From Allacma fusca (taxonomy: Eukaryota; Arthropoda; Collembola; Symphypleona; Sminthuridae): DNA of 64,000 nt. The stretch's first letter is position 1, and the number at the start of each line of letters is the position of its first letter. The position numbers and the translations under genes are program-made. Under the pieces are notes generated by a model. That model saw nothing but the letters and a program-made list of their open reading frames with translations. It ran no database searches and was not told the DNA's origin. Location: contig OX359250.1 in assembly GCA_947179485.1 (NCBI GenBank), positions 47,155,450 to 47,219,449 on the forward strand, written 5' to 3'. Positions 2,098-56,861 of the stretch are shown piece after piece.

Positions 2098-2544
2098 TTT
2101 TTCCTATAATTCACGGACCTGCAGGAAATCAGACATTTAAATTTGGTGCTTTATCTTGTCTTTTCCGTAAAATTTTGAGTACTGCCAAATAGAGTGAGAA
2201 CTAAATATGGTGCTGAGACTTAAAGGTCTTCATCGGATCGGATTGATCCGGACGGATTCGGATCGGATCGGATTCGGATAGGATTGAAAACACAATTAAT
2301 CCTATCCGTCAAACATATGGCGGACCGGATGCATCATTTGAATCCGTGTATGTATTTCGGATAGGATTTGATGCAGTAATGAATGCATCCGACCGGATAG
2401 GATGAGCATGTTCTGTGTTTTCGGATGATCCGGCGGATATCCGCGGATATCCGTCTTTTAGACGAGCCCTCTCGTGAGGAATAATGCTATTATATTGTCA
2501 CGCATTTTATAGTAGAGAGATTCTTGGATTTGAAATAGAGGTGA

Positions 2545-3290
2545 GGCCAGGAAGCGGGCTATTAGATTCGGGCCGACCCGAACCCGACCCGGCCGGGTTT
2601 TTAGCCGGGTTCGGGCTGCAAATACGAACTAACGTCGGGCTCCGACCGGGTTCGGGCTGCACTAAAACAATGAAACCGGGTTAAGTTCGGGCTTGGGTCT
2701 GCATTTATTTTTCAGTTCGGGTTTCGGGCGGGTCACAAATTACAAATGACCCGACAATTCTACTAGAATATGATTTAGGACAGATAGGTGGCATGCATAT
2801 TTGACGTTGCGCAGAGTTCAAGCATTGCTTTCATGTATATTCATGCCAAAGCAAAATAATGGTTCACTGTATTTAATACTTACACATGCTTAAACATTTT
2901 GAAACGATCCCTTAAGTTTGATAGTTTATCTTCAAAAAATTTCAGAGCTAAGTTTTGCTCCGTGTGTGCACGTTTATTGGGATCGACAGTGTATGCAAAT
3001 AAAATAGAATATGTTAATAAAGGTTTCACAGCGGATTCATTTGTTAGTAAAAAGCCGGATTTTCATCGGGTTTTAAAACTATTTAAAGATTCGGGTTGTA
3101 AAATATTTTGGAGAACGGGTTTTTAACGGGCTCGGGTTTCACAAAATGTGAAGTGCATAAAACGGGCCAGGTTGAATATCGAATATTTAGCCCGTTGGCA
3201 GGCGGGGTCGGGCTAATTGAGTATTTGTTCGGGTTTCAATGTTCGGGAAAAATATTCGAGACAAAAGAATCAAGGAAAGCCGTGTCAATT
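2545..3290 (+). repeat. CGGGTTCGGG-word element nested in the GGATCGG MITE
   Basis: Repeated CCCGAACCC/CGGGTTCGGG words fill 2550-2760 and recur at 3050-3260, with a non-repetitive core between. The first ~410 bp are closely similar, in inverted orientation, to 5880-6300. Exact ends and target duplication were not resolved. Open frames inside are fortuitous. Confidence 0.55.
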
Positions 3291-3521
3291 ATATTGAATG
3301 CATAATCTATTTGTTTTCTGTTTTTTTTTAAGCAAAATTAGTTTTGCATCTAACGAGGTAATTATCGATACACCGGAATTTAAAAATTTTCATATTGATT
3401 TGAATGTGATAAAATTAGAAACATGCCCAATATATAAGATATATCTCTTTTACGGTTTCTTGAAGTAAGGTTCGCATATCCGCGGATATCCGCGGATCGA
3501 ATCGGATGCATCCGTAAATGT

Positions 3522-3601
3522 TTTGTTTGTTTGTTTGTTTGTTTATTGTAGGTCCTACAGGCTTCCGCCTATGACCCCGTAAATACAAAAATGAACATTT
3601 T
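3522..3601 (-). mobile_element. 80-bp retroposon 3' tail with 8-bp duplication
   Basis: On the minus strand a short unique piece ends in AATAAAC followed by a repeated ACAAA tail (a TTTG repeat on the plus strand at about 3522-3545). GTAAATGT flanks both sides (3514-3521 and 3602-3609). This looks like a severely 5'-truncated LINE or SINE inserted inside the surrounding MITE. Confidence 0.5.
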
Positions 3602-3913
3602 GTAAATGTATCCGACGGACCGGATCGAAAATTTTATCCGGTCCGAAAATTCCGGATCGGATACGGATACTTATAAAATGGTATCCGACTCTATCGGATC
3701 GGATAGGATAGGTGTTTTTGAAATCCGGAATTTACCGGATCGGATAGGATCGGATACGGATGAGACCAGAATCCGATCCGTGAAGACCTTTACTGAGACT
3801 AGTGTTTTCATAGGTACAGGCATACACCGAAACCGAGGCTGTCCTCAGGGGGATCTCAATGTACCAAAAAGTGTCGCCGTGTGGGGGGTGTCAAAATCTT
3901 GTACAGTCAGGCC

Positions 3914-4393
3914 TAGTGCACCAATTCAGTTCTGAATTAAAATTTTCAGTTCAATTCAATTCACTACTTTTTCGATGCAATTCAAGATGAAATTGAACCG
4001 ATTGCTTTAGTTCATAACTTTGAATTGAACTGAATCGTTTCCCTTGAATTGAAGTTCAAACAATTCATTCTGCCCCAAACATTTCAATAAAAAATTCGCC
4101 GTTTACAAACTCTCCGGATCCTTTAATAATTAGCGATTTGTACCCTTAATTTAGCTTTCTTTTGTAGTGCGCTTGGAAAACACTGCCGTCATTTCTAGAA
4201 ACCTTACTTGTAAGTATGATCTGTAGAAACCGTTGGTTTTCGATTCAGTTCAATTCAATTCAAAATTTTGAACTGAACTGAATTGAATTGGTTTTTACAG
4301 AACTGAATTAAAAATATAGTTTCAATTTAGTTCCGCATGTGAATTAAACTGAATTGGAAAAAACTGAACTGAATTGAACCGTTCCGACCACTA
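3914..4393. mobile_element. hAT-like MITE, TTCAATTC-word family
   Basis: The element begins TAGTGCACCAATTCAG and ends CCACTA. It is flanked by a perfect 8-bp duplication GTCAGGCC (3906-3913 and 4394-4401). Most of both halves is built from TTCAGTTCAATTC and its complement GAATTGAACTGAA. There is a unique core near 4080-4220. The inner repeated words are far more extensive than the short terminal repeat. Confidence 0.8.
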
Positions 4394-4401
4394 GTCAGGC
4401 C

Positions 4402-5059
4402 ATTATTATATATAAAGCTGCCAGATCTTGACGAGAAAAATAGTAGGCTCCCAAATTTTCATTGCAAGATTTATTCTTGCATGTAAAATATCTTATCTCA
4501 CCTCTCATTTGGCAGTTTTAAAGCGATAGTACAATTATTAATAATTTAGATATTAATAGTCATTTATTTGAAAATAAATAGACCATTAGAGTAGTGTAGG
4601 ATGAGACAACATCACTTCCTGTGCTAATGTTCAGTGTATAGGCAATAGGCACCAAGACACAATTTGCTCGCACTCTAGCCCATTTAAGGGCAATGGTAAA
4701 AATCTTCAATTCCTTGCTCTTGCATATCCTGGTCCCAACCGGATCGCAGCTGGGGCAGAAACCAACGTACCAACACCCGTGTTCACTTGATGAATAATAT
4801 ACTTTTTTTAATAAGTTTTATAAAATAAATAATATTCAAATTAAAAATTCGTATTTTAAATTCCCAGTAGAAATTAATTAAAACGTCTTGCAACAATACA
4901 ATATGCTAGCACATTAATAGGTTCACTACATTGGGCAGCCATGTCGGACCGAAACGCTAGTGTGGCTGAAAAAACTAAGTAAATACCTCTAAAATTACAA
5001 AATAATACAATAAAAATATAAACTAATGCTACAAAATATATAAAAAGTAAGACGAGGAA
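4402..5059. other. No gene recognised
   Basis: AT-rich unique sequence without convincing coding frames, splice-bounded exons or transposon termini. Confidence 0.45.
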
Positions 5060-5340
5060 AAATGAATGATAATAAAGAGTTGAACAGGAAGCAAAAATAT
5101 TTAGCTCCGGTTTTGGGGGTTAAGGTGGAGTGAATGGAGTGTAATATCATTGATGATATATTGGGGTATGGGCAAATAAAATATGTAGATTGTGAATTTT
5201 GATTTAATAATTTGGTACAATTTCTGCTTTTGGTGATACATGGGGATTTTAGATTTCAGATTCAGATTGTATTTTAATACGGATTCTTTTCGGGCGGCGC
5301 CCATATCATCCAAACACAGCCTAGTATTACTAATGAGAAA
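5060..5340 (+). repeat. Dispersed repeat shared with 51870-52140
   Basis: The stretch from the AACAGGAAGC word through TTTTGGTGATACA aligns with the reverse complement of 51870-52140. Shared blocks include ATTGATGATATAT and GGGTATGGGCAA. The second copy sits immediately upstream of a minus-strand LINE. It could be that LINE's 5' untranslated region or an independent element beside it. Confidence 0.55.
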
Positions 5341-5468
5341 GAACAATTAACCTAAAGATTTGCAAGGAAATTATTCCTGGCAATACAATTATGAATAAAC
5401 TTAAATATATCACATGTGAGATCCTTGGAGGGATTTCTAAAAAGTGATAGAAGAGATATCTCTTTGTT

Positions 5469-5866
5469 CAGGCTTCTGTTCGGGACGGGACGGAACAATA
5501 GATCGGGACAGAAAAATATACCTGTACAGTATACTATTGCTGTAAAAATGAATATGTATGGGAATCGTTCCGTTTAAAATTTGTTATTCCATATATAAAT
5601 ATTTTTTAAAGTAAAATTTCGCTATTATTGGAGGTTACCTTGTAGAAATAAAGGAATTTGGAGCATTTCATAAGACTGGGATTATAACCGGGACGGGACG
5701 ACGTCCCGAGGTTTTCGGGACGGGACCGGTATCGGGACAGTTTCGGGACAAAATGTTTGTCCCCATGTAATTTCGGGACTGAATCGGGACGATTTTTTTT
5801 TGTCCCGAGGATTTCGGGACGGGACAGAATTGTCAAAAAAATTGTCCCCAGTAGAAGTCCTAATTC
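5469..5866. mobile_element. MITE-like element, GGGACGGG/TCCCG-word family
   Basis: The left end CAGGCTTCTGTTCGGG and the right end, read in reverse as TAGGACTTCTACTGGGG, are similar but imperfect. Two blocks of GGGACGGGAC words flank a core at 5520-5680. Related fragments lie at 20580-20880, 43860-44000 and 46205-46390. The last shares the ATTGTTCCG and TGTACAGTATACTA blocks in inverted orientation. No target duplication was found. Confidence 0.55.
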
Positions 5867-5879
5867 CTACTCATCACAT

Positions 5880-6300
5880 TCAATAAGCGAGCTCTAAAGG
5901 AGCAAAACTTCTTTTTGGCTCTGAAAATTTTTGAACATAAACTATCAAGTGGAAGCGATCGTTTCAAAATGCTTAAGCTTGTGTACGTATTAAATACAAT
6001 GAACTATTATTTATCATGAATATACATATGTACGTGAAAGCAATGATTGAACTCTTGGCAACGTCAAATATGTATGCCGCCTATCTGTACTAAATTCGAT
6101 TCTAGTAGGATTGTCGGGTCATTTGTAATTTCTGACCCGCCCGAAACCCGGACTGAAAAATAAATACAGGCCCAAGCCCGATCTTAACCCGGTTTCATTG
6201 TTTTAATGCAGCCCGAACCCGGTCGGAGCCAGACGTAAGTTCGTATTTACAGCCTGAACCCGGCCAAAAACCCGGCCGGGCCGGGTTCGGGAACACTTAA
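5880..6300 (-). repeat. Inverted copy of the CGGGTTCGGG element
   Basis: The reverse complement matches about 2550-2970 closely, including the unique core with GGTGGCATGCATATTTGACG-like sequence. The two copies lie about 3 kb apart in opposite orientation. The high-coordinate end passes directly into GGATCGG-type words. Confidence 0.6.
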
Positions 6301-7407: not shown

Positions 7408-7411
7408 CTAT

Positions 7412-7946
7412 TATTAAGGTCAAGCTGAGGTCACTCCTTTTGAGTAACTTTCCAAACTTGACTAATTATGAATCGTGCTAAAAATGTAATTAATTGGACG
7501 AAAGCAACTAATAAAAGTCTCAAATGTAATCCAGAGAATTATTGAATGAAACAACCCGAAGGCTGATTGTTTATTCAAAATGAAACTGAAAACGAAATGA
7601 TTATTACTTCAACAATAACTTCAGAAACTTAAAAATAGAACAAAAGGGGAATCTCAGAGGATTCCAAAAATCAAACAGAAAGGAATAACTCTCAGTCTAA
7701 GACTGAAGTTCGCAAATAAGATTTGCACACACTTTAACACTGTCGTGTGTGATTCATACATCATTACATCATTTCATAAGATGAGACGCGTCCAAAAGTG
7801 GAGCGTGAGAAGTCCCTCGTCAGGGATTCTTTACTCTGCTCTAGACGCAGCTAGAGCTGACCTTTAACACTAATAACAATTTTATTACATGACTAAAATC
7901 ACTTCTTACAACTACACTTCTTACAACTATGTATGTATACCTTACA
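7412..7946 (-). repeat. 3' LTR
   Basis: 535 bp, identical to 15937-16471. On the element's strand it begins TGTAAGG and ends CCTTAATA, an imperfect inverted terminal pair. It contains AATAAA on the minus strand at 7570-7575, a candidate polyadenylation signal. Confidence 0.95.
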
Positions 7947-8311
7947 TCCCGGGGTCCGGGAAAAACATTTTGTCCTCAAAATGTGAACAATTTTATCATG
8001 AATAAAATATAAATGGCCAAAATTATGTCAAAATGATACCATAATAAGTACTTGTAAAGTACAAACCAGAAAATGATAGAGTAGATAGTTACAGCAAGAG
8101 AAAAAGAGAGACAAAAGATTGGTTTTGTATTTTTCATCTATACTTACACTTGATAATTTACAAGGAAGACATTATCAAGTTTGTCTCACAATCGGAAGCC
8201 ACTTAAAACTATGACAATGTGATTAATTTCATAATTCTAAGTACTAAATGCACTGGCTAAAATATTTTTAACACCACACTTTTATATACACAAGCACTTT
8301 ATTGATGAAAG
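7947..8311 (-). other. LTR element 3' UTR with weak polypurine tract
   Basis: This is the 365 bp between the ORF4 stop and the 3' LTR. The bases next to the LTR read GGACCCCGGGA on the element's strand, which is a poor purine run. If this is the plus-strand primer it is atypical; a run of A and T lies a little further upstream. Confidence 0.5.
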
Positions 8312-9049
8312 TCAATAAGCACGGGGGAAGGTAACAACGGGAGCAGGATGCTGGGCGTTGTTATTTTCTTCAGGAGTTGACACGAAGACGGCCTGCTGGA
8401 GGTGTCCGTGTTGACGCGAAGAAGTGCGGCGGTAACGGTAACAACCGTAAAGGATTAAAAGTAAACCAAAAAGAGTAAAGAAAACAATACCAGTTATGGA
8501 GAAAATTCTGAATTCCAAATTATAATCACCAGTGCCGAGGCCAACTTCAAGTTGAGGGGTTGGAATGACGGCAGGGACGACTGGAAGTTTCGAAGACTGC
8601 TCTTGTGCAGTTGGAGGGGCTGGTGTAGCTTTGGTGGACTTTACAACGTCTTCAAGGTTGAAAGTTTTAGGGTCGGCAATCATCATGAGTTGGAGTAGCT
8701 TGAAATCTTGGATGGCTTGTTCCATGGGAGACAAGGTCACGTTAGGGCTGAAATTAACACTTTCACTCGCACTAGTAACATCTTCTTTGAGAAGGTGATG
8801 TGGAGAAAGATTTTGATTGAAGGTATTAGAAGGTGAAGGCACAAAATCAAGCACTTTAGAAATTACGGGAGGAGCAAGCACAAAACCGGCTCCAAGAGCC
8901 ATCACTTTTAATGCATTAGCACGCTTTTTCTTATTTATGTCAGTGAGAAAAGGATTTGGGGCAACTTTAGAATGAAGTGTGTTAATACTTACTGACCTTT
9001 GAGGATGAATTACCAACTTTTGGTTGGAAAGAGCCTGTTGCTTGTTCAT
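8312..9049 (-). CDS. ORF4, env-like C-terminal-anchored membrane protein
   Basis: Starting at the ATG at 9049-9047 the product is 245 aa. That ATG overlaps the ORF3 stop as ATGA, so stop-restart translation is possible. A basic KKKR cluster at about residue 40 is followed by a hydrophobic, Gly/Ala-rich stretch. Together they resemble a protease cleavage site and hydrophobic segment of envelope proteins. Several N-glycosylation sequons follow. A strong transmembrane helix lies near residues 182-204, with a short RYRR-led cytoplasmic tail. It is much shorter than typical gypsy envelopes and has no signal peptide from this start. The same frame continues open upstream through a hydrophobic segment. 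An envelope role is inference. Confidence 0.6.
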   Translation of the reverse strand: MNKQQALSNQKLVIHPQRSVSINTLHSKVAPNPFLTDINKKKRANALKVMALGAGFVLAPPVISKVLDFVPSPSNTFNQNLSPHHLLKEDVTSASESVNFSPNVTLSPMEQAIQDFKLLQLMMIADPKTFNLEDVVKSTKATPAPPTAQEQSSKLPVVPAVIPTPQLEVGLGTGDYNLEFRIFSITGIVFFTLFGLLLILYGCYRYRRTSSRQHGHLQQAVFVSTPEENNNAQHPAPVVTFPRAY

Positions 9050-10173
9050 TTTGGAGAGACTGAATCCATGTGTGAGGGATGGTAAGCTGTTCCATCCTCC
9101 GGGCGGGGGTAGTGGGGCCGCTCCGCCGGAGCAGATGAGGAAGAAAACACAGAGCGTGGTGAACTTTGTGGAGAGGCCACAAATTCTCCTCTGTCGTTTA
9201 GCAGGAACTGTTGAGACATATGTGACGGAGTCATCTGAGGAGTCCCCGGAAGGTGGGACGATGATTCCCGGGGATGAGGCGGATTCTCCGAAGAGGGCGG
9301 AGGCCGGCTCATCATGCTCGTTGTGGAAGAAACTGTCGTGGACGGAAGTCCCGAACGGAGCACTTCGAAGGAGGGAAGGCGATATGCAGGAGACTCGTTC
9401 CGCACGCGAATTGGATCGCTTTGAGCGGGTCGGATTAATGACAGGTTTTTGAACTGACACTGGGGGTGAGTCACTTTTGGGGTTGAAAAATTTTGACACG
9501 CCGGAGGTACCGGGTTGGGGTGAATCTCTGGCGGAACTACTAAAAACTGAGCTCGCGAGTGACTCGGAGCTGACATTTGAATAGGCGGGCGACTGTGGCA
9601 ATGATATTTTGCGTTTGTCAAAGGACTCGAGGTAGGGAGCAACTTCCGTTGTTTCGGAACTGCCTTGAGATGCTCGAGTGTTGATTGGGTAAAAACTTCG
9701 ATGTGGATTTGAGGGTCCACTAAAATCACTGGAGTGGACAGAACGAATTCCGCTGGGGAATCCCTCATTTGATGCAACAATTGTTTCCATGTTATAGCCT
9801 GGCGGTACGCTGCCGCACAGTAAGCACCTCTCAATTGATCTATGAGCAAGGGCACAGCACTGGGTAACACAAGTCCCAGGGCGACGTGACGAAAAATTCT
9901 GGAGTAGATGGGAACTGAACAATCCGTTGCAGCAATGACTTGTCCAGTTGCATCCGAAAACTGAAGGGGAAAAATTTTTACAATACACTCGGCCACCGGA
10001 CAATAAACTGGGATATTGGATGGAGTAGGGAGTGTAACCGAAGCTAACTGCGACCAAGGGTTCTCTCCTAATTTGAAAATTGGCCGGACTCCCAGCGTAG
10101 TCATAGGAGTCAGTTGGCCTTGGAGAGTCGGATATTGCGGGGGTGCTGGAGAGTTGGGGGATGAAGAATTCAT
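9046..10173 (-). CDS. ORF3, unknown retrotransposon accessory protein
   Basis: 375 aa from the ATG at 10173, which lies 57 nt after the pol stop. An in-frame GTG at 10197 is less likely. The first ~170 residues look globular, with mixed hydrophobic and charged residues and several Cys. The rest is Pro/Ser-rich and likely disordered. I recognise no family: it is not gag, pol or a standard envelope. It is positioned where gypsy-type elements carry env, so it may be made from a subgenomic or spliced mRNA. Its stop overlaps the next ATG. Confidence 0.6.
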   Translation of the reverse strand: MNSSSPNSPAPPQYPTLQGQLTPMTTLGVRPIFKLGENPWSQLASVTLPTPSNIPVYCPVAECIVKIFPLQFSDATGQVIAATDCSVPIYSRIFRHVALGLVLPSAVPLLIDQLRGAYCAAAYRQAITWKQLLHQMRDSPAEFVLSTPVILVDPQIHIEVFTQSTLEHLKAVPKQRKLLPTSSPLTNAKYHCHSRPPIQMSAPSHSRAQFLVVPPEIHPNPVPPACQNFSTPKVTHPQCQFKNLSLIRPAQSDPIRVRNESPAYRLPSFEVLRSGLPSTTVSSTTSMMSRPPPSSENPPHPRESSSHLPGTPQMTPSHMSQQFLLNDRGEFVASPQSSPRSVFSSSSAPAERPHYPRPEDGTAYHPSHMDSVSPK

Positions 10174-10207
10174 GACGATGCATGTGTAAAACGACACAGT
10201 AGGGCAA
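9050..10207 (-). other. Upstream open extension of the ORF4 frame, overlapping all of ORF3
   Basis: The ORF4 frame has no stop for another 386 codons, through the whole length of ORF3 in a different frame. The first in-frame ATG is at 10183. The encoded text is Ser/Pro-rich and Cys-containing, with a hydrophobic segment near codons 347-360 ending CSGGA, like a signal peptide cut site. If a spliced or subgenomic mRNA enters this frame, ORF4 would gain an internal signal. Otherwise the openness is a by-product of the C-rich ORF3 sequence. Confidence 0.4.
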
Positions 10208-10229
10208 CTAAAGTAAGTATAGCAAAAAT

Positions 10230-13200
10230 TTATACACGTTTGGCTTTATCAATCAATCGCTGAGATTTTCGCACCGGAAGTGGGAGTTTAGATGGAGACG
10301 AAACTTTGGATAAAACTGGAACACGAGTCGCACTTTCAGAAGATGATGATGGAGTGGAAATGTCAGGAGAGTCGGAGGAGTGAAAATGACTGAGCCAAGA
10401 GTTAAACTCATCTTGGTCATCACGTGTGTATACATACTCAGGGTGTATTATACCATTACCTAAATCTAAACTTATAAGCTTGAGCTGTGAAAGATGACAC
10501 CGGACATTAGGTCGCAACCTTTGAGAAGGGAATGTTAAAACTAGCTCAGCATTATTGTTCTTATCTATACTTACAATTGTATAGGGGCCTATCCACCTAC
10601 AGAGTAATTTATCGGAAAGACCAACTTTACGCTGTGGTAAGTAAAATCTAACGTGGGAACCAACTTTATATTCAAAGGGTCTGTATTGCGCATCAAACTT
10701 TTCCTTGGCCTGAATCTGAGCTGTGCGAATTAATTGAGCAATTCGCTGATGCATAATTTTTACTTGATTCGGACTCAACTGAGTAATACTTAAAAGGGAA
10801 TTAGGGATCGAGTTTAGCATGGGAGCTGGAGGCTGGCGCCCGAAAAACGCTTGGAAAGGGGAAATTTTTGTAACCGAATGCTCACTGGTATTGTAAGCAG
10901 CAATTACATATGGAACATATACGTCCCAATTATCTTGATTATCGGAAACAAACTTACTAAGCATTATTGCTAAAGTTTGGTTCACTCTTTCCACGGCTCC
11001 ATGAGACCGGGGGTGAAAGGGCACACTAAAATTATGAGTAATGTTAAACTGTTGTGTTAATTTTTGCACAACTGCCGACTTAAATTCAGCGGCACCATCA
11101 GAAATTAATGTGGACATGCCTGGAAAAGTTAAAATAAATTGCTCGAGATGCATGGAAACATTCGCAGCATCTTTGACAGGAAGCAATGAAACATGAACCC
11201 ATTTAGTAAACAAGTCAGTTAAAACCAATACATATTTATTACCTCTAGGTGTTTCTTTAAAGGGGCCTAATAAATCCATCGCGTAAGTACTAGCGGGGAT
11301 TTTTATGGGAATTATTTTAAGACTGTCCATCCGTAGACGAGTCTGATGTTGGCGACTTTGGCACTCGGGGCATTGTGAGCAATGCTTGAAAGTGTCCGCG
11401 GTCATGGATCGCCACCAATAATAGGGACGGATCCTTGCCAAACATCTACGAAAACTGAGATGACCTGCTAAGGGATGATTATGGGCATTATGTAATAATG
11501 TGGGAATCAAGGCCTTAGGAACTAAAAGTAAATTAGGTTGCCTAGGATTAAACTGAATAAAATACACACCATCACTATTCGAAGTAACTTTTGAGCGCTT
11601 TTTTGTTAATAATCTCTGCAAAACAGGATCAATAGCTTGAGCATGTTTCAAGTCGTCAGGATTAATTAACGGATCAAAAGGAGTAATGAGAGAGGAAGTA
11701 AAACCAGGTAAAATCAAATCCTCCTCAGATTGTGTATCACTCGACAGTGCATATGGACAACGGGAGACGCCATCCACATTCCTGTGGAGAGAGCCTTTTT
11801 TATAACGTATCACATACCTATATTCCTGTAAAATTATAGACATTTTTGTAAGTCTAGCAGTAGGGTCACGCTGACACTTTAAAAAGCATAATGCATGATG
11901 GTCAGTGACAATTGTAAAAGGCTTTAAAAATAAAAATTCACGTAACTTTTTCGTGGAAAATACAACAGCAAGACACTCTTTCTCTGTGACACTCCAATTT
12001 TTCTCCGTAGGAGTGAGTGCACGAGAGACATAATAAACGGGATGCTCACCATCCTCAAACTGTTGGTGGAGAATCCCTGCAATTGCAAGGTTGCTCGCAT
12101 CCGTGTACAATAAACATGGAAGATTCTCATCATAATGTCTCAACACAGGGGCTTTACACACGGCCTGTTTGAGATTTTCAAAAGACTCATCACAATCCTT
12201 GGACCAATGGTACAAAGAATGTTTTTTGAGTAAGCTCTGCAATGGAGCTGCAATCTGAGCAAAACCTAAAATAAATCTTCGGTAATAACCTATAGTGCCC
12301 AAAAATTTTCTAAGAGTATCTAAATTATTGGGCTTCGGCTGGCGCATTATAGCAGCCACTTTAGCCGGTTCCGTTGTTAATCCTTGTTGGGTCAAATAAA
12401 ATCCGAAAATAATATGTTCTTGCATAGCAAAATTACATTTCCATGGACTGAGTCGAAAATTAACTCGGGATAACGCTTGAAAAACTAATTCAAGGGCGAC
12501 TAAATGAGAAGGAAAATCACGACTGTATGGAATTATATCATCTATATATGATACAGCATGTGTATAGCGTAAGCGTCCCAAAGTTGCTATAGCTAATTTT
12601 TGGAAATAGGCCGGAGCATTTTTGAGACCGAAACATACGCGGAGGTACATATATATACCAAACTCAGTAATAATAGCGCATAAATGTCTATCATCAGGAT
12701 GAATCAGAGCCTGATAATAGCCGCTAAATAAATCCAAGGGGGAAAAATACTTTGCATGTCGGAGCTGAAAAAGTAAATCATCGATACGGGGAAGAGGAAA
12801 TAACTCATCTTTAGTGATTTTGTTTAACTTTGTAAAATCACACACTAATCTCCATTTATTTAATTTTTGTCGAACTAAAAACACTGGGGTTGAATAATTG
12901 GAAGACTCACACGGGACTATAATATTAGCCTGTATGAGTTTGTCAAGTTCACTCTTTAATATTTCACGTTCAAGGGGACTTAGTCTATACGGTTTGGACT
13001 GAACTGGAACATCCGAGTTCAACTGTATACGCATGGGAGGGAGAATGCAAGCCTGTAAATCATTAATGCTCCATGCAAAAAGATAAGAATACCGATTTAA
13101 AAGTTGAATAATAGCATGACGCTGGTCTGGGGTAAGCTGAGAATTAATATTGATAACTGAAAGTTGTTCAGTAGTCAATGGTTTAATTTCGGAGGGAATA

Positions 13201-14189
13201 ACTGGGACAGAAGAGAGGGCTTGAACAAACTCATACCGTTGTGAGTAACCTAAAATTGTGCCCGCAACAATAAGTTGAGGAGAGCGAGACACATTGGAAG
13301 CCAATAAAACATTTTTACTATGGTTGATGACAGGGGGAAAAATAACTTGAAGTTGTTTTTCTACTGTAGGGCTGGGAATGAACGCACATGAATGAGTGGA
13401 ATTCATATCTGTGGTTGGAATGTACATTTGACGTCGAGGGGGAAGGTTAATGGTAAACAAGGACTTCACTGGTAAGGAACATCCACATTCCACTGAGCAC
13501 ACTTCATTGTATGCATGACTACGAAGATAATGGGTCACTTGTGAATTATACATAATACTACGACTAACATCTACAACCAATGTGTATTGTTTGAGAAAAG
13601 CACACCCTAAAATGAATGAGGGGGTGAGAGTATCTAACACATGAGCTGTAGTTGTGTAATGTATATTATCTAAATTAAAACACAAAGTTACTACACTTGA
13701 AGTTTTAAGTTTGGTTTTGTCAGCGGTCATAATATGACAGGGAGGGCCTGGCAAAATTTTACTCTCAGCTGGCACTGCACTTCGTAAAATTAAAGTATGT
13801 GTAGCACCAGTATCAACTAAAGCATCAATTGTCACTGAGGTAAAATAGCACATGATGTAGGGGCAATGTGTAGCACTTAAAACATTTACAGAGGGTAAGT
13901 AATCTGTGGGTATGACTGTAGAGTGGGATTTGCTTGAACTTGCTGGGGAACTGCAGCCTGTTGAGGAGGCGCAAAAGCAAGTTCCACTCTTTGAACAGTC
14001 TGGCGATTGTTGGGATTGTAATTGTTGTTGCGGCGGTAATTGTTGTTTTGGTAATTCCGTTGACCATTGTTGCGGTTCTGGAATTGTTGTCGATTTTGAT
14101 TGTTGTGGGGACCCTGGTTCTGATTGTTGGGTCCCCGCTGCCCATTTCCCGACCGACAATCGCGAGCAAAATGACCAAATTTGTTGCAA
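10230..14189 (-). CDS. pol: Pol polyprotein: protease, RT, RNase H, integrase
   Basis: A 1,319-codon frame that begins with a TTG directly after an in-frame TAA, so it must be entered from gag by a -1 frameshift between 14189 and 13886. The aspartic protease has DTGA at 126-129. RT has SPLDLF near 483-488 and YIDD at 548-551. RNase H has TDAS at 696-699 and TDHHAL near 762-767. Integrase has an HHCC zinc region around 903-943 and catalytic D972, D1031 and E1067, giving D,D-35-E spacing. A GPY-type WIGPY motif follows in the C-terminal part. No chromodomain is seen. All catalytic residues are present, so the enzyme set looks functional. Confidence 0.95.
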   Translation of the reverse strand: MQQIWSFCSRLSVGKWAAGTQQSEPGSPQQSKSTTIPEPQQWSTELPKQQLPPQQQLQSQQSPDCSKSGTCFCASSTGCSSPASSSKSHSTVIPTDYLPSVNVLSATHCPYIMCYFTSVTIDALVDTGATHTLILRSAVPAESKILPGPPCHIMTADKTKLKTSSVVTLCFNLDNIHYTTTAHVLDTLTPSFILGCAFLKQYTLVVDVSRSIMYNSQVTHYLRSHAYNEVCSVECGCSLPVKSLFTINLPPRRQMYIPTTDMNSTHSCAFIPSPTVEKQLQVIFPPVINHSKNVLLASNVSRSPQLIVAGTILGYSQRYEFVQALSSVPVIPSEIKPLTTEQLSVININSQLTPDQRHAIIQLLNRYSYLFAWSINDLQACILPPMRIQLNSDVPVQSKPYRLSPLEREILKSELDKLIQANIIVPCESSNYSTPVFLVRQKLNKWRLVCDFTKLNKITKDELFPLPRIDDLLFQLRHAKYFSPLDLFSGYYQALIHPDDRHLCAIITEFGIYMYLRVCFGLKNAPAYFQKLAIATLGRLRYTHAVSYIDDIIPYSRDFPSHLVALELVFQALSRVNFRLSPWKCNFAMQEHIIFGFYLTQQGLTTEPAKVAAIMRQPKPNNLDTLRKFLGTIGYYRRFILGFAQIAAPLQSLLKKHSLYHWSKDCDESFENLKQAVCKAPVLRHYDENLPCLLYTDASNLAIAGILHQQFEDGEHPVYYVSRALTPTEKNWSVTEKECLAVVFSTKKLREFLFLKPFTIVTDHHALCFLKCQRDPTARLTKMSIILQEYRYVIRYKKGSLHRNVDGVSRCPYALSSDTQSEEDLILPGFTSSLITPFDPLINPDDLKHAQAIDPVLQRLLTKKRSKVTSNSDGVYFIQFNPRQPNLLLVPKALIPTLLHNAHNHPLAGHLSFRRCLARIRPYYWWRSMTADTFKHCSQCPECQSRQHQTRLRMDSLKIIPIKIPASTYAMDLLGPFKETPRGNKYVLVLTDLFTKWVHVSLLPVKDAANVSMHLEQFILTFPGMSTLISDGAAEFKSAVVQKLTQQFNITHNFSVPFHPRSHGAVERVNQTLAIMLSKFVSDNQDNWDVYVPYVIAAYNTSEHSVTKISPFQAFFGRQPPAPMLNSIPNSLLSITQLSPNQVKIMHQRIAQLIRTAQIQAKEKFDAQYRPFEYKVGSHVRFYLPQRKVGLSDKLLCRWIGPYTIVSIDKNNNAELVLTFPSQRLRPNVRCHLSQLKLISLDLGNGIIHPEYVYTRDDQDEFNSWLSHFHSSDSPDISTPSSSSESATRVPVLSKVSSPSKLPLPVRKSQRLIDKAKRV

Positions 14190-15388
14190 TTATAGCATTG
14201 GAGCCCACGAGCAGGGTTGGGATTATTATTATTACCGTTATTTTGATTATTATTGTTACGAGGAGGACCATTATTATTATTTCTACCACCGCCTCGTCCG
14301 CGACGATTATTATTACGTTGAGCAGGTGGGTTACCATTTAATGCGTTAACTTGAGCATGTGGGGCATCAGATGTAGTTAACTTTTTGATTTGTTCTTCCA
14401 AAGCTAATAATTTAGCAGTAGTATCGGGCATGGGAGTAGCTTCTTGTTGAAATTCACGATGCTCGCAAAATCTAACAAGGGCTGCGATACTTGTAAAACT
14501 CAAGCCGCTAGTAGCTTGGGCGTATTTTGGGAGTAGTCCCGAAATGCCCCAAGCCACTCTATCAGCGACGGGCATGTTTGCATCATAACGGGAACAAAGT
14601 GTATCCATAGCATACAAAAATTTTGCACATGACTCTTTTTCTACCTGAACTTTTGATTTAAGTTGGTGCAAATAAACTTGACGGCTTTTACCGTATCTCT
14701 CTCGAAGAGCTGTATACATAGTGGGAATATCTACTACAGTGGAACCTGCACGTCTAATTTCACCCTGTAGCCAAAGAAATGGATCAGGCAATAATAAATT
14801 GGGGAGATTATTTTGTAACTCCGCCCAATCCCATTTAAGTAAACCAATAATCCGCTCCAAATCCATAATAAAATCAAAAACATCATGATTCGCCGGATCA
14901 AACTGATTAGTTTTCTTAAAATTAAGAAAAGAATTCGCTGGAGGGGTTTGAATCACTATCGTAGGCGGAACTGTCGTCGCCATTTTATTCGTATGATAAT
15001 AAACTGTTGAAAAATAACCACTAGGTTCTTGAAATAAATCACATAAATTTATTACCGGAGGTGGGATCTTAAATTTACGAGAAGCACGTTTTGCATTTTT
15101 CTGCGAAGCACTTTGAGTAAAACTAGCACTTGGGGTAGGTTTAGTAGTTTTGGTTTTAAGGGGTGGAATTAATGGAACAGTTGTAGTAGTTGGAGGAGTC
15201 TGAGCTGTGCTACTGGAAACTGTAGTTACAGGTTGGCGCTTACGAGCAGCCTTTAAAACCTTAGCTAATTGATCTTTATCTAAAATGTCAGGGTTAGAAT
15301 TTGAACGAGTTGAACGCCCTTGAGGCGGAGGTGAAATTGATGACTGAGATGCAAGGGGTTTCTTTGGAGGCTGTTTTGAGCCAGACAT
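13886..15388 (-). CDS. gag: Gag polyprotein
   Basis: 500 aa from an ATG at 15388. It has a basic, Ser/Pro-rich N-terminus and a helical capsid-like middle (about 170-350). One CCHC zinc knuckle, CYNCNKFGHFARDC, lies near residues 396-409, followed by an Asn/Gln/Arg-rich nucleocapsid tail. It forms particles and packages the RNA by family analogy. The frame is intact. Its 3' end overlaps pol by about 300 nt in the +1 relation expected for -1 frameshifting. Confidence 0.92.
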   Translation of the reverse strand: MSGSKQPPKKPLASQSSISPPPQGRSTRSNSNPDILDKDQLAKVLKAARKRQPVTTVSSSTAQTPPTTTTVPLIPPLKTKTTKPTPSASFTQSASQKNAKRASRKFKIPPPVINLCDLFQEPSGYFSTVYYHTNKMATTVPPTIVIQTPPANSFLNFKKTNQFDPANHDVFDFIMDLERIIGLLKWDWAELQNNLPNLLLPDPFLWLQGEIRRAGSTVVDIPTMYTALRERYGKSRQVYLHQLKSKVQVEKESCAKFLYAMDTLCSRYDANMPVADRVAWGISGLLPKYAQATSGLSFTSIAALVRFCEHREFQQEATPMPDTTAKLLALEEQIKKLTTSDAPHAQVNALNGNPPAQRNNNRRGRGGGRNNNNGPPRNNNNQNNGNNNNPNPARGLQCYNCNKFGHFARDCRSGNGQRGPNNQNQGPHNNQNRQQFQNRNNGQRNYQNNNYRRNNNYNPNNRQTVQRVELAFAPPQQAAVPQQVQANPTLQSYPQITYPL

Positions 15389-15924
15389 AAAAAACCATAA
15401 TTATTTACGTACCTTTTTCCAGTAAAACATCAGTAAGTCTTGATATGACCAAAATAATAAATCATTTAAACACTTGGACAGGAAAATCACTCTGTCAAAA
15501 CAACACACACAGGAAAATCTTCTGTGGAAAACTTGAAAGCAGGTAAAGGTCCTCTGCAAAAATCCAGTAAGGCAGGCAAATCCTCTGCAAAATCTTGTAT
15601 AGGCAGGCAAATCCTCTGCGAACAATGACTCAATCCTCGGAACCGTTGTGGGCCAGGAGAGTAGAATCGGGGGCAGTCCAAGACAGCTGTTGTCGCCACT
15701 TGGTCCACCTGACTTCAGTAGTTGCAATCTACAAGTCCTTTAACAAAAATTCTCGAGACGGGAATAAAATCAACCGTTAGACAAACTTCATGTTAAAAAT
15801 CAATCTCAAAAGAATGCCAAAATCTCAAACTTTTTTCTTAATTATTGCGCTTTTAACCCGGGGAGCCTAATCTGAGAGCTATTCGGGTGACTTATTCACG
15901 GGCAAACTGGTGAAAAGTCTTTGA
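15389..15924 (-). other. LTR element 5' leader with short direct repeats
   Basis: The untranslated leader is between the primer-binding site and the gag ATG. A ~30-bp unit containing GGCAGGCAAATCCTCTGC occurs twice in a row with a further partial copy (about 15540-15625). It could be a packaging or structural element. A short minus-strand frame here has no recognisable product. Confidence 0.55.
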
Positions 15925-43859: not shown

Positions 43860-44000
43860 GCGAATGTCATGGTATTTAGGGTTTCTACTGGGGACATTTT
43901 TTTTGTCCCGCCGACAATTCCGAAATCTTCTGGACAAAAAAGTTCGTCCCGATTCAGTCCCGAAATAACATGGGGTCAAGAATTTTGTCCGGAAATTGTC
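43860..44000. repeat. TCCCG-word element fragment
   Basis: It starts GGGTTTCTACTGGGGACA, like the reverse of the 5866 end, followed by GTCCCG and CAGTCCCGAAATAACATGGGG words. The right part is lost. Confidence 0.5.
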
Positions 44001-44412
44001 ACACCGATTCCAGTAACAGCTTTTAGAACAGTAGATTGTAGCAACCTATACTCACATCGACGTGATTCTGCTCAATATTGAGAATTTGAATCGTAGAATT
44101 CGGAGTAGTGATTGACCTGTGTTGTGTTACTATAGTTTCTAATTTGTTCTCTTAGTATTACCAAATAGCTTAGTAAGTTAATAATTTTGTTGATATTGTT
44201 GTCATCATGTTTAGCATGCGACAGAACATATTTGGCTTGATTGATAATCTGTATTCAGACCTGCGTTCGGGTCAAGTATTTTAAGGATCCGAACTTGAAC
44301 TTTCAAGTAGATATTTGTCATTACCCGAACTTGGCGTTTCGGGTCCCAGGAATTACTTGTCATACCAAGTCATATCTTGCAAGTAATCCTTCCTAAACCC
44401 GAACGTGATTTG

Positions 44413-44980
44413 CAGAGCTGTCCAAAATACATGCTCCCCAAATACAAATTACAAAATACTAAATACATTCCTCAGGCGTCGAAAATACAAACTACAAAAT
44501 ACATTCTTCAGGCGACGAAAATACAAACTACAAAATACTAAATACATACTCAAAACGTAGAAAATACAAACTACAAAATACTAAATACATACTTGAAACG
44601 TAGACTCTTGAATTTAGCCTTATGGGATGTTAAAACGATTGAATTTCGTTTTACTTCATTGATGTGATTGGTTTTTGGCATAAACGGAAATTTCAAACCC
44701 CAAGACAGTGCGCCAACAAAAAACACAAGTAGCTCGTATAGCGAACAAAATACAAACTGCAAAATACATTGCGGACTTCACTTAAGTAACACAAACTACA
44801 AAATACATTGCTTCGTAAGATAAAATACAAACTACAAAATACAAAATACATTGCTTCATAAGACAAAATACAAACTACAAAATACATATCTAGCCACTAA
44901 AATACAAAATACAAAAGTGTATTTGAAATACGTATTTGAAATACATGTATTTAAAATACCATGTATTTTGGACAGCTCTG
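44413..44980. mobile_element. hAT-like MITE, ACAAACTACAAAATACA-word family, nested
   Basis: Perfect 21-bp terminal repeat beginning CAGAGCTGTCCAAAATACAT, with the perfect 8-bp duplication GTGATTTG (44405-44412 and 44981-44988). AATACAAACTACAAAATAC is reiterated more than ten times. It is inserted into the outer element. Confidence 0.92.
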
Positions 44981-45351
44981 GTGATTTGATACTTGAATGT
45001 CGGGTCCATAAATCTTGCGAACCGAACTTGGAATTGACTTGAACCCGAATTTGGATTTCAAGTACTTGAACTTTACAACTTTGTAGTATGAAGTCGCAAA
45101 AAAACACCAAAGGGCGGAGCTAAGATTTTCAATTTCCGTCGTCTTTATTAAATTCAGATTCGGGTTCACTCGTCGTTTTTTCGTTGTGTTACAGTCTCAC
45201 AGGACAAATTACTTCGACAGTTTTTCAAAAATGATGAAAAATTAGAAATACAGTTTTAAGCAAGACGATTTACAGAATACACAACAGTCACTCCAAATGA
45301 AAGTGAGCTCCAGCTTCTGTGCAAATCTCTGCAGGCATGGTTTCTAGTAAG

Positions 45352-45691
45352 GATGCCAATGGTCTGGTCCGGACTATTTATAATGGTCCGTTATTGGTCT
45401 GGTCCGGTCGGATTCAACACATGGGCCACACCAGATACAATTGGTTCAGCTTCAGGACCAGACCAGACCTGACCACAGGACCATGGTCTCAAACGTACTA
45501 AAATTAAAAATTTCTGTGTTAACGAAAACCCACGGGACAAATTAAAACTGACATTTCTGGGGATAAAAGAATTTGACGGGATAAAATGTGATTATTTAAT
45601 TGCTCTCAATGGTTTTCTGCACCATGGTTCGGAGCATGGTCTTTGGTCTGGTCTGGTCCGAACGACTGGATCAGACCAGACCATTGGCATC
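45352..45691. mobile_element. GGTCTGGTCC-word TIR element, nested
   Basis: GATGCCAATGGTCTGGTC at the left has its complement GACCAGACCATTGGCATC at the right. GGTCCGGAC words are inside. It lies inside the 44255-46003 element. No 8-bp duplication could be read, so insertion boundaries may differ by a few bases. Confidence 0.6.
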
Positions 45692-46204
45692 AACAGAGGG
45701 AGAAGAACGAACAAAGGCAGCAAACGCTGGAACTAGGATACTTGAATCGGTACTTGAAAGTGCAAGTTCGGGTTCAAGTAAAATCCATGCCCAGACCCGA
45801 ACTTGAACTAGATTCTTAGATCAAGTCAATTCTGTGCGCTTGCACTTGGACCAGAACCGACTTGAAGTTCCAAGTTCGGATCCAGCAAATACTTGAACTT
45901 CACCCGATTCAACCAAGTTGAAACGCTTATGATCCCGAACTTGATCCGAACTTGACCTGACTTGTTACTTGTCAAGTACTACTTGAACTCGAGCGCAGCT
46001 CTGATCTGTATGTGCAATTTGCTGGTTGATAAAATTGCACCTAGGATTATTATGAGACAAGTAAGTCCGAATGATTATTCGTCCTTCTCGCCTTTTAAGT
46101 CTGTATTAGTTAGTTCTGTATTTGGTGAATCCATTGTTTATCTGGTTTTCTTGATTTCATATAATCTAGAAGCCGCTCCCAGTTGGAACAACAACATTAG
46201 TATA

Positions 46205-46390
46205 CTGTACATGTTTTGTTTTTCTGTCCGGATCTATTGTTCCGTCCCGTCCCGAAATCTTTGGGACAAAAAAGTTCTTCCCGATTCAGTCCCGACATAA
46301 CATGGGGACAAAAATGTTGTCCCGAAACTGTCCCGATCCGACCTCGAACCGAAAACCTCGGGACGTCCCGTCCCGAACAGAAACCTGCCT
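46205..46390. repeat. TCCCG-word element, inverted relative to 5469
   Basis: It contains ATTGTTCCGTCCCGTCCCG, CAGTCCCGACATAACATGGGGAC and ends GTCCCGAACAGAAACCTGCCTG, the complement of the 5469 end. A deletion derivative of the family. Confidence 0.5.
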
Positions 46391-47143: not shown

Positions 47144-47750
47144 TAGGAATGGGACTGTTCTGGTCCGGACCAGAAATTTTGGTCCGTTCTGGTCTGTTCC
47201 ATGGTCTGTTCCGGTCTGTTCCCTGGTTACGAAAGGACCAAATGTACCTGGTCCAAGAACCTTGATAGACCAATTAAACCTGGTCCAGCTCAAAGAACAG
47301 ACCAGAATGTTTGGTCCTTTGTTTGGCCCAGACCATTTGGAACGTTCCAGCATGTATTTCAACTGGTCGGACCAGATTCAATAGATGACCATTAAGTATT
47401 TCCAATTCCCGCGAATAGAATAGCATTGCTAGATTGTACAGCATGATACGATCGATTATTCAAAACAGTATCTAAATTGTCAAATGCTTGCGTGTTGTGA
47501 TCATATTATAAACCTATTCGGTCCTAGTGGTCTGGTCTGTTCTGTTCCGGTCTGGTCCATGTTATTTTTAGGAACAGAACATATGTTTCTGTTCCAGCAA
47601 TTTGTACGGACCAGATGGTTCCGGTCCTACAGTCTAAAAGACCATATGGTCCTGGTCCTACACGGAGAACAGATCAAATGGTCTGGTCCAGGCTCAAGGA
47701 CCAGACCATTCCAAGAAATCCTGGAACATTCCGGAACAGTCCCATTCCTA
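47144..47750. mobile_element. hAT-like MITE, GGTCTGGTCC/GGAACAG-word family
   Basis: TAGGAATGGGACTGTTC with its complement at the right, perfect 8-bp duplication ATGTAGAG (47136-47143 and 47751-47758). GGTCTGTTCCGGTCTG and GGTCCAGACC words lie on both sides of a unique core (47400-47515). Related in words to 45352-45691. Confidence 0.9.
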
Positions 47751-53316: not shown

Positions 53317-56220
53317 CTAACATTCGCGGTCTTTTTTACCGCGTTGAAAAGGCCGCAACCACCTGGCAACGCACTTGGGAAGGGTAGTTCGTTTCAATTT
53401 GCAGCGGTTCCTCTTTGAGTACAATGTTAGTAGAAATCTGTCAATTTTAGCTTGTATGAGGTCTAAATTTGACTTACAGGCGTTACTCCATATAAGCAGA
53501 CAAAAATCAACATGTGACAGAACAAATGCATTTATAAGCATACACTGCGTGTTGAGATTAAGATATCTACGTACATGGGTAATAATCCCCATACTTTTGG
53601 TTACCTTTTTGAGTACATAGTTACAATGTTCCTTATAGTTTAATTTATCATCAATTATAATCCCGAGATATTTGAATGACCATAACCTCTCGATAGGCTC
53701 ATTACCAATAACAAGGGTTTCACTCACGTCCACTGCCCTGGTAGACTTGTTAAAAATAACATATTTAGTTTTTTGTGTACTGATTACAAGAGAATTATTA
53801 CGCATCCACAAATTAAGTTTGTCAAGCCAGACTTGCATTCCTGCAAACAAACTAGAAATACACTTATCAGCAATATATAATACTAGATCATCCGCGTATG
53901 CAACATAGTCAATGGTTAGTAGGTCTCCAATATCCGACAAAAAGAGTGTAAAAAGAAATGGTCCCAGAATAGAGCCTTGCGGAACACCATTTATGTCATC
54001 ATATTGTTTTGACAAGTTGTCATTGATATAGATTTTAAATTTCCTGTTATACAGATAGTCACATAGTAAACGTAGAAGCATCGGGTTACACCTGAAGTTC
54101 CTTTTAATTTTCTGCAATAGTAGCAGGCGCAATACAGAGTTAAATGCCTTTTTCAAGTCGATAAATACAGCTAGTACTTTAACAGAGGGAGCACCAAGGT
54201 ACATACATATTTGATGTACAAAGCAGAATATAGCCGTAAAGCAGGAGCGACCCTTACGAAATCCATGCTGACGTTCGTCCAAGTTGGCTTTACATTCATA
54301 TAGAAGTCGTGAATATATAATCTTCTCAAAGAGCTTGTTCAAAAAGGGCAAGCAGTGTATAGGACAGAACGAGTCAGGACTTGTCTTGCTTCCTTTCGCC
54401 TTATATATTGGAGTGATGATGGCTGTCTTAAAATGTGAGGGTATCGTGCCGTTTATCAACATTAAGTTAAACAGTAACATAATAGGAGTCACAAGAGAGG
54501 CTTTACAGAAGATCTTGCGGTTGATGCATTCGTATGTACTAGATATGCATTTCAGTTGACGAGCTGCCGTCCAGATTTCGTTAGCAGATATAGAAGCGCA
54601 GTCCATGCCAGTGGTTATTGATTGCTTGAAAGCTAGTATATCTTCGTCTGTATAGTTACAAGGAAGTGTAAATGAGTCTGCAAGACTATCACATACACTA
54701 TTAAGGTTAGTTATAACGTTGCCGTTAACATGAAGTTCATCAATAGTTGTACCACTATGTTTGCTTTTCCCCAATAACTTGTCCACAACTTTCCATACTC
54801 CATAACTTGTGTTATTGACATGTAGTTGATTTGTAAAGTACAGTCTTTTAGCTTCATAAATGTCATGTTTCACTTTAGCTCTATACCATTTATATTCAGC
54901 CCATAGAGACGACGACCTATCTGTGCACGCCAGCTTCTTTAGCTTATCCCTATATAGGATCATAGAACGTATATCACAAGAAATCCACGACTGAGTTTTA
55001 AACTTTACACGTTTTCTCATAAGAGCTGCATGCTGATCAAGAAGTACCTTTATAGTTGTACTGATTACATTGTACACAAAATCAGTATTATACTTAGCAT
55101 TGACAAGAAAGTCCCACTTAATTTTACACAGCTCTGTATTGAAAGTCACCCAGTCTATGTCATCAAGTTTACGGTACTGGATTTCTTTTACATTATGAGA
55201 TGCAGGTTTCTTAAAACTATACTTAAAGGTAATGTAATCATGGTCATAGAGGCCAGTAACATTACTATTCCAGTCCAGAGATAGGTTTACAGGTACGTAT
55301 AAGTGGTCAATAAGTGAGCTAGATTGTCTCTTCCCAAAGTCCCTTCTTGTTTGTACATTAACTACCTGCTTATAGTTATACATGCGCAGGATTGATAAAA
55401 GCTTAATTGCATCTGTTGACATATTCGAAAGGTCTATATTTACATCCCCTACAATTATGAACAATTGTTTTAGACTAGTAGTATAACGTAGCAATCCATC
55501 CACAAAAAGTTAGATACCGAGCTTTTGGGGGGTCTGTAGATAGTAACAACTACTATTGACTGAAATTCGGTTAGACCCATTTTACATGCCAATAGTTCTA
55601 CATCCGAGTTAAAATATTCAACATTAAGCTCAATGACTCGATATCTTAGCCTGTTATGGAGATAGATAAGCAGGCCGCCACCTTTTTTATGGGGACGATG
55701 TTTACACAGCATGTTATACCCAGAAATGTTATACATATCAATATTGGTTTCCTCATTAAAAAAAGTTTCAATGATTGCTACGAAGTCAAGACTTAGATTA
55801 CAGATAATGGTTTTAAGTTCTTCTGCTTTGTGTAGTGCAAAGTTATTAATGTTAAGACATAATAGACCAATATGTTTACAGGAGAGAGTATGTACCTTGT
55901 GTGTCGTTGGTAAGGACAAAGGTACTGTGTCAGCTTCAATTGGGCATTCAAGTATTGTGGCCGAGTCTGCAGTTTTACTTAAACAGGTTACACAAATCCA
56001 CAAGTCACGATTAATTGATCTGTAAACACTCAGATTCACACAGGTACGATGATAATAGCAGCCACATGTACAACAAGATAAGCAAAGTGCACGAGCTCTT
56101 ATCTTTTGAGCACAAATGATACAGATTTGAGCACTGACAGTTATTATACAGTCACAAAAATAAGCAAGGATGATAAGGACGGGGAAAACCTCGCTTGTAT
56201 GGAGTTTGAAGAGTGATCCA
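53317..56220 (-). pseudogene. CR1/Jockey-group LINE: PHD finger, endonuclease, RT (one frameshift)
   Basis: The minus-strand frame is open from about 56220. A PHD-type C4HC3 finger (CIIC...CLSC...H..C...WICVTC) spans 56123-55983. The AP-endonuclease follows, with LCLNINN, IIETFF, YRPPK, GDVNID and a final DHD. RT has HGFRKGRSC, FIDLKKAF, NGVPQGSILGP and YADDLVLY (near codon 534 of the second frame). It stops at 53317. The only break is at a 5-base A/T run (55504-55508), where one base seems missing between the endonuclease halves. No in-frame ATG precedes the finger, so the copy is probably 5' truncated or starts elsewhere. Near-intact, so fairly young. Confidence 0.85.
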
Positions 56221-56454
56221 GTCAGTCAAATGATATAATAATTTTCCTAATTATTTAAACCTGTATGCTTAATACCAAACATATTTGAAAAGTAACCTGT
56301 TTCATAGTCCAGTGTAGAAAACAAGAAATTAATCCATAATCAGCCCTAGTTAATTAAAATTTATTCACGTAGTATTTTCTTGCAAGGGTAATCTGTAATC
56401 CATAATCAATCATTTCTTTTGTGAAATATGCCCAGCTTGACCAATACAATTTAG

Positions 56455-56861
56455 CAGGGTTCGGATTTTTGTAAATCTCCCTGGTAGATTATTTCTGAAT
56501 TTCCCTACTGAATCAAATGTTCCGGCTAGGAGGTTCCCAACAATTTCAAAAATCCCTGCTGAAAAAAGGTCAACGATGTTCAAAATCCCTGCTGGAAAAA
56601 ATTATTCCCCTGCAAGTCGACAAACCTCTTTGAAATAAGGTCAACCAATCTAAAAATTCCTGTTTGCCTAACAAATTTCCAAGAAACGCGTTAACAAATT
56701 TGAAAAACCCTGCCAAAAAAAGATCAACGAATTTTTAAAATCCATGTTCGCAAAATAGAATCCCTTCCTTTTGAGACTTTCCCTGCAGGAAATATCTTTT
56801 TCCTGTCAGTAAATTTTTCCCTGGGAAGAATTTCTCTCTTCCCACAAAAACCCGACCCCTG
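56455..56861. mobile_element. hAT-like MITE, CAGGGGTCGGATTTTTG family
   Basis: CAGGGTTCGGATTTTTGTAA at the left, CCCGACCCCTG at the right, perfect 8-bp duplication CAATTTAG (56447-56454 and 56862-56869). Inner CAAAAATCCCTGCTGAAAAAAGGTCAACG words are reiterated with variations. Confidence 0.9.

Follow-up and report, generated by a model that had tools for sequence, protein, structure and literature searches.

Miniature transposons, mostly with hAT-type ends, and their family-specific subterminal words in a 64-kb stretch of the Allacma fusca genome

In this study, a stretch of 64,000 nucleotides from the genome of the collembolan Allacma fusca (contig OX359250.1, positions 47,155,450 to 47,219,449, hereafter the window, in whose own coordinates all positions are given) was investigated for miniature inverted-repeat transposable elements (MITEs) whose flanks carry many copies of a short word. 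We observed that these elements are bounded insertions, and that the words are largely private to their families, occur in excess over shuffled sequence and lie chiefly in the subterminal regions. Judging from the sequence and from analogy with studied transposons, the elements are quite probably MITEs of mostly hAT type, with the family words as putative subterminal binding repeats of the cognate transposases. A subterminal word design of this kind is already known; what is unusual is the variety of words within 64 kb, together with a pair of related elements, E11 (29620-30479) and E12 (31577-32271), and these two points merit specialist follow-up.

An earlier note, made from the sequence alone, had reported elements with short ends, mostly with 8-bp duplications, at the places where the words lie, and a scan that ignores the words bears this out. 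The scan demanded an exact, non-self-complementary 8-bp target site duplication (TSD) and a terminal inverted repeat (TIR) that agrees in at least 9 of 10 bases, and it returned eight matches (2221-3792, 18479-18889, 19085-19985, 27928-28165, 31577-32271, 44413-44980, 47144-47750 and 56455-56861), against a mean of 0.47 and a maximum of 2 in 60 dinucleotide-shuffled windows. All eight are elements with a word quoted in that note or, in the case of 27928, a relative of such an element. With the TIR threshold relaxed to 8 of 10 bases, 20 matches were observed against a shuffled mean of 5.7 and a maximum of 12, which makes this level noisy. The whole-window shuffles replaced an offset-based control (9.4 matches), which was discarded because its offsets land within word arrays. 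Two candidate elements, 2443-3483 and 2597-6271, were dropped, as their supposed TSDs are self-complementary and lie within words.

Targeted search and reading by eye add 3914-4393, 25466-25965, 29620-30479, 35982-36367, 41756-41924 and 44256-46003, giving 14 loci in total with the 8-bp TSD expected of hAT elements. The TSD copies agree at 8/8 bases in ten loci (the eight blind matches, 3914-4393 and 41756-41924), at 7/8 in two (29620-30479 and, by eye, 25466-25965) and at 6/8 in one (35982-36367), while at 44256-46003 they agree at 8/8 but with a one-base shift on the left (by eye). At 3914-4393 and 41756-41924 the TIR is only 5 bp long, so that these calls rest partly on words or homology, and the boundaries of 25466 and 44256, which the automatic TSD search missed, were set by eye. 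The automatic search gave no convincing pair for four CGGGAC loci, two CGGGTT loci and 45352, for the CTAGACTTG loci (34042, 57967, 42070), or at 20185, 21360, 28416, 26040, 48120 and 16475; loci left without a pair were kept out of the TSD-bounded count. In length, 12 of the 14 loci range from 169 to 901 bp, being short, non-coding and TIR-bounded as MITEs are, and the two longer ones, 2221 (1572 bp) and 44256 (1748 bp), contain nested inserts. The first five bases of hAT ends follow the consensus YARNG, which is displayed at both ends by nine of the 14 loci, at one end by two (25466, 44256) and at neither by three (19085, 47144, 41756). Within the window, BLAST-type comparison disclosed four families with 2-4 matching loci each, 69-89% identical (97% for one 38-base piece).

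With regard to insertion, E11 lies inside an exon-like stretch, and removal of the element with one TSD copy restores a single open frame that starts from an acceptor-like site and runs through a hydrophobic, helix-like stretch, which we counted as the empty site of E11. The interrupted exon is a later exon of a multi-exon gene at 28840-30620 that looks receptor-like by eye, and no Pfam family matched its first exon. For E18 (47144-47750), a repeat copy at 32280-32800 lacks the element, and a MAFFT alignment of the joined flanks runs through the insertion site, imperfectly beside it. When the joined flanks of 16 elements, E18 included, were compared with the window by BLAST, no match spanned any junction. 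Nesting was also noticed: E15 (44256-46003) encloses E16 (44413-44980) as well as 45352-45691, and E1 (2221-3792) is broken by CGGGTT-word sequence at about 2567-3245 (approximate limits). From the position of E16 within E15 and of the CGGGTT sequence within E1, it would appear that the families were mobile at different times.

The words were tested at 17 loci, namely 13 of the 14 TSD loci (without 41756) plus 5469, 45352, 26467 and 42587, with test coordinates that deviate by a few bases from the final ones at six loci. The best 8-mer, with at most one mismatch allowed, exceeded 100 shuffles in 13 of the 17 (p<=0.0099), the other four giving p values of 0.020 (27928), 0.020 (26467), 0.079 (25466) and 0.178 (56455). 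In exact 6-mer and 7-mer tests with 200 dinucleotide shuffles (two tests per locus, uncorrected), 16 of the 17 loci reached p=0.005 in at least one; 27928 did so for 6-mers (7-mer p 0.144) and 26467 for 7-mers (6-mer p 0.080), and 56455-56861 showed no word excess in either (p 0.214 for 6-mers, 0.124 for 7-mers). Such an excess might be spurious, arising from base composition and from the selection of loci where words had been seen, as the words were already in sight when nine of the 17 loci were chosen or delimited. Best words also recur in 60 control segments off the loci, at a mean of 11.1 and a maximum of 20.0 copies per kb, and seven loci (2221, 19085, 25466, 29620, 56455, 26467 and 42587) have densities at or below this maximum, so that their case is carried by the shuffle test and by placement. 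Against this, the shuffles preserve the dinucleotides of the same loci, and 7 of the 8 elements from the word-blind scan pass the 6-mer test; the blind set thus largely rules out the artefact, to which we give a very low probability.

A word-by-element matrix is chiefly diagonal, showing that the words are largely family-private, with about fifteen words over the 17 tested loci. The claim of the earlier note that words differ entirely among families is not confirmed as it stands, the words of 29620 and 31577 being variants of one frame. Off the diagonal, GGTCTGG is common to two loci, and GGACCTGA, a word of 31577, has 8 matches in 47144-47750. Recurrence of the ten words quoted in that note was confirmed in part, since GAGACGAG occurs once in its own element and CAAAAATCCCTG once in 56455-56861, although a shorter core of GAGACGAG does recur. 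The privacy of the words also bears on whether, instead of transposases, they attract host factors that act in replication, chromatin or transcription: with a host factor, one word or a small set common to the families would be expected, and this alternative is accordingly very improbable.

Concerning placement, 161 of 184 copies of the hand-picked words fall in the outer thirds of the elements and 23 in the middle, consistent with the subterminal motif repeats of hAT elements and with the claim that words fill the flanks around a core, from which 27928 (0 outer, 3 middle) and 35982 (1 outer, 5 middle) depart. That words occur in both orientations stands for nine of the 17 loci and fails for six, where the orientation is uniform (5469, 18479, 27928, 29620, 35982 and 56455); at two more (31577, 44413) it is nearly uniform. 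In E11, E12, E16 and E18 the match between the terminal repeats extends as far as a copy of the word, exact or variant.

Words might also have grown in ordinary MITEs in the manner of microsatellites or minisatellites, by slippage or unequal exchange and with no binding role. Tandem arrays detected by Tandem Repeats Finder at 4 of the 17 loci (2221, 35982, 44413 and 47144), blocks of 43 bp repeated in E16, neighbouring words at 6-bp steps in 31577-32271 and the unequal word number of two relatives, 238 bp with 3 copies at 27928 and 407 bp with 5 copies at 56455, all speak for such growth. It does not account for the 13 loci without a detected array, or for copies that are mostly dispersed, irregularly spaced, off the core and, at nine loci, in both orientations; nor does slippage alone predict one word on both flanks of an element. 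Simple slippage, which the earlier note had named as a possible refutation, is thus insufficient by itself, and we regard it as an unlikely origin of the words, though less so than a host-factor role. From the differing length and word number of 27928 and 56455 and the 43-bp blocks of E16, we infer that arrays may change by local duplication or loss of blocks.

The window most probably holds many non-autonomous DNA transposons, chiefly hAT-ended, in which, if the words are indeed binding repeats, each family's subterminal array would offer short sites to its own transposase, putatively read through an N-terminal BED zinc finger. The array would recruit a multimeric transposase cooperatively, with cutting at the terminal repeat to follow. 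MITE flanks would then consist mostly of sites because only ends and sites need keeping, and there would be one word per family because every transposase lineage has its own specificity.

Similar designs are described in several papers. Maize Ac bears multiple AAACGG copies within its terminal 200 bp that are bound cooperatively by the transposase, and the Ac/Ds system resembles the window elements in its 8-bp TSD, short TIR and repeated, transposase-bound subterminal word (PMC3260210), such binding being putative in the window. Ac/Ds differs in being one family with one word and in that most Ds1 elements have fewer than 3 copies, whereas the window displays about fifteen words and no Ac-like partner was seen in it; apart from TIRs and a few hexamers, Ds1 has little in common with Ac (PMC3260210). 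Subterminal repeats have been attributed to most hATs, and the housefly element Hermes, like the window elements, harbors them at both ends, with 17 and 14 motif copies and a BED domain that binds subterminal repeats, but its word AAG(T/C) has 4 bases against 6-10 in the window, and the right-end repeats are unbound (PMC10368747). The mosquito hAT Herves likewise carries its own motif, CG/AATTCAT, at both ends, to which its transposase binds, and its authors emphasised the diversity of hAT binding sites; it differs in being autonomous, with long and unequal ends (PMC3143072). On the protein side only, CGGBP and other hAT-derived DNA-binding domains show private specificities parallel to the window words, in that they prefer mostly unique 8-mers, and the motifs of all four hAT-encoded domains are matched by the subterminal DNA of the elements encoding them (PMC8097297). 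Private words would follow from private DNA-binding domains, so that no lineage-specific process is needed; the proposal of a possibly lineage-specific mode of MITE evolution is not supported, given that Ac/Ds and Hermes each carry their own repeated words in the subterminal DNA, and Herves a subterminal motif of its own.

Several observations weigh against the words being binding repeats of hAT-type elements. The proposal, already made in the earlier note, fits the position and excess of the words and published hAT biology, but no hAT transposase domain was found with Pfam in the 19 open reading frame (ORF) translations scanned, out of 119 stop-to-stop ORFs of at least 75 amino acids. Canonical hAT end bases are not present in E6 (19085-19985), E18 and 41756. 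Two loci carry words between ends that, like their duplications, look non-hAT, namely 42587-43792, whose outer thirds contain 8 and 7 copies and whose middle contains 0, and 26467-27888, where the outer thirds have 6 and 1 copies. Emigrant/Lemi1 and CACTA, non-hAT elements that reportedly have repeated subterminal motifs, are a possible precedent for both. The words show no helical phasing at 10.5 bp (R 0.02; 139 same-orientation spacings at 10 loci), and their spacing gives a weak signal near 12-12.5 bp (0.17-0.18). In 6 of 7 within-family comparisons the words are no better conserved than other bases, the exception being 2577-2979 versus 5881-6291 (p 0.011); this is expected of dead copies, yet gives no support either. 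In maize, at least 3 hexamers occur in only 17 of 331 Ds1 elements, some Ds1 without hexamers are still mobile and tested Ds-like elements with hexamers are immobile (PMC3260210), meaning that word arrays are neither strictly required nor sufficient. In Hermes, the BED domains of the octamer read the left end only, leaving the right end unbound (PMC10368747). Apart from this, relatives were sought outside the window: two patterns searched in a viral contig collection and one pattern searched in a genome contig collection gave 0 matches each. The 45 viral contigs matching one 20-base pattern were rejected as coding coincidence, 33 of them matching in long open frames.

The pair E11 and E12 carries related ends and different words. 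Their right ends are 77% identical over 74 columns in a gapped BLAST alignment (E 4e-8 to 5e-8) and share 54 of the first 74 bases ungapped, and the left ends align too. GGAAC is found 16 times in E11 versus once in E12, GGTTC 4 times in E11 versus 18 times in E12, while GGTAC is common to both (7 and 12 copies). In the ungapped end blocks the variable word bases mismatch at 18 of 30 positions and the other bases at 21 of 97 (Fisher p 1.3e-4, in a post hoc test chosen once the alignment had been seen), and under a narrower definition the right end alone gives 9/12 versus 11/62. Taking the whole GGAAC/GGTTC 5-mers, mismatches between the two elements are not concentrated in words (right 10/30 vs 10/44, left 10/25 vs 9/28). 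A third relative is represented by a left end at 28416-28660, CAGGGGTCGTCATGGGTACAAAAC, with CATGGGTAC in its terminal region; its right end was not found. We tentatively suggest that E11 and E12 come from one ancestor, whose terminal and subterminal layout both have kept, and that at aligned word positions the two variable bases switched throughout the array (GGAAC to GGTTC), terminal repeat included, as if the transposase specificity had moved along; this could well prove wrong and, coming from a single pair, is a lead and not a rule. Among the matches listed, no publication on concerted word switching appeared, which is weak evidence of absence.

The elements were catalogued without assigning a strand to any of them. 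E1 has the TIR TAAAGGTCTTCA, the TSD CTGAGACT and the word GGATCGG; E4 (3914-4393) has the 5-bp TIR TAGTG, the TSD GTCAGGCC and the word TTCAATTC. E3 (5469-5862), with the word CGGGAC and no TSD found, was given its ends by eye from relatives, which match at 20517-20651, 43877-44014, 46191-46256 and 46240-46375. E5 (18479-18889) exhibits a 15-bp TIR TAATGTTAGTCAAAC, the TSD CCGGCGAA and the word GGGACTGA in a single orientation throughout. E6, with the TIR CATACCTGGGCG, the TSD GTCCTCAC and the word GAGTGCGA, deviates from the hAT type at positions 3 and 5 of its termini, and it was considered for the P superfamily, which is marked by an 8-bp TSD, a TIR starting with CA and a P-type transposase; its TSD and TIR are compatible with this, and no transposase was seen. 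E9 (25466-25965) has the ends TAAGGGTGAG / TAGGTATGAG and the TSD ATCTGAAG / ATTTGAAG (7/8), both by eye, and the word ACGAGA. The AAATCCCTG-word family includes E10 (27928-28165; TIR CAGGGGTC(A/G)GATTTTTGT, TSD ATGTTGGC) and E10b (56455-56861; TIR CAGGG(T/G)TCGG, TSD CAATTTAG), whose word excess is not significant, and a relative of E10 lies at 41756-41924 (TSD ACATGAGC, 5-bp TIR CATGG), outside the 17 word-tested loci.

E11 is bounded by a 21-bp TIR CAGTGCCTGTCATGGGAACAG and the TSD GCAGAGAT / CCAGAGAT and bears the word GGGAACGGG; E12, whose ends are akin, has a 20-bp TIR TAGTGCATCGCATGGGTTCA, the TSD AATGTCAC and the word CAGGTTC. An unnumbered element at 35982-36367 (TIR CAAAGGTGTCCA, TSD 6/8) harbors the word TATAGGC, in part as a 22-bp tandem array. 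E15 has the ends CAGACCTGCG / CAGAGCTGCG, with ATCTGTAT at both sides and an extra base on the left (by eye), and the word ACTTGAA. Within it, E16 shows a 21-bp TIR CAGAGCTGTCCAAAATACATG, the TSD GTGATTTG and the word AAATACA, in part as the 43-bp tandem blocks, and E17 (45352-45691) an 18-bp TIR GATGCCAATGGTCTGGTC by eye, no TSD and the word GGTCTGG. E18 has the TIR TAGGAATGGGACTGTTC, the TSD ATGTAGAG and the word GGTCTGG / GGACCAGA. The word-bearing element 26467-27888 has non-hAT ends ACCCGAGTAGAAAT, a TSD of AACT or TA (by eye) and the word ACGTCAA, and 42587-43792 has non-hAT ends CCCAGCTAGCACT (by eye) and the word CATTATGA.

Other features were also noticed. Pfam searches of the ORFs revealed LINE- and LTR-type (long interspersed nuclear element and long terminal repeat) reverse transcriptases, and the window includes an exon with splice-like borders. 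An LTR-type retrotransposon at 7412-16236, with a minus-strand reverse transcriptase/integrase ORF and another of 631 amino acids (8312-10207) that has no Pfam match, has 300-nt direct repeats that are 100% identical, which suggests that it inserted recently. The word-rich CTAGACTTG family is found at 34042-34259 and 57977-58175 (69-71% alike), about 42070-42230 being linked by eye only; a search for their boundaries found none. An 87-nt repeat occurs in three copies (17677-17763, 35605-35691 and 37084-37170), two of them preceded by TCTCTATACTATAATTTGAAGATGA-type sequence, which, like the TCTCTACTA start at 37984 (about 37984-38204), resembles Helitron ends. A short TTGATTTAAATCA array at 20190-20290 starts with CAGGGTGGC and resembles one element end, whose partner end was not found, and the ORF 62157-62561 matches DUF6570 under the curated cut-off.

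If the words are not binding sites, the window holds a rich yet expected set of hAT MITEs. If they are, each MITE family would record the specificity of its transposase, unseen autonomous partners could be matched to it by word, and pairs such as E11 and E12 would allow a direct test of whether a DNA-binding domain and tens of its sites co-evolve. Should the switch be true and repeated, it would provide a fossil record of changes in the transposase recognition code, and would show how new hAT families may come to avoid cross-mobilisation.

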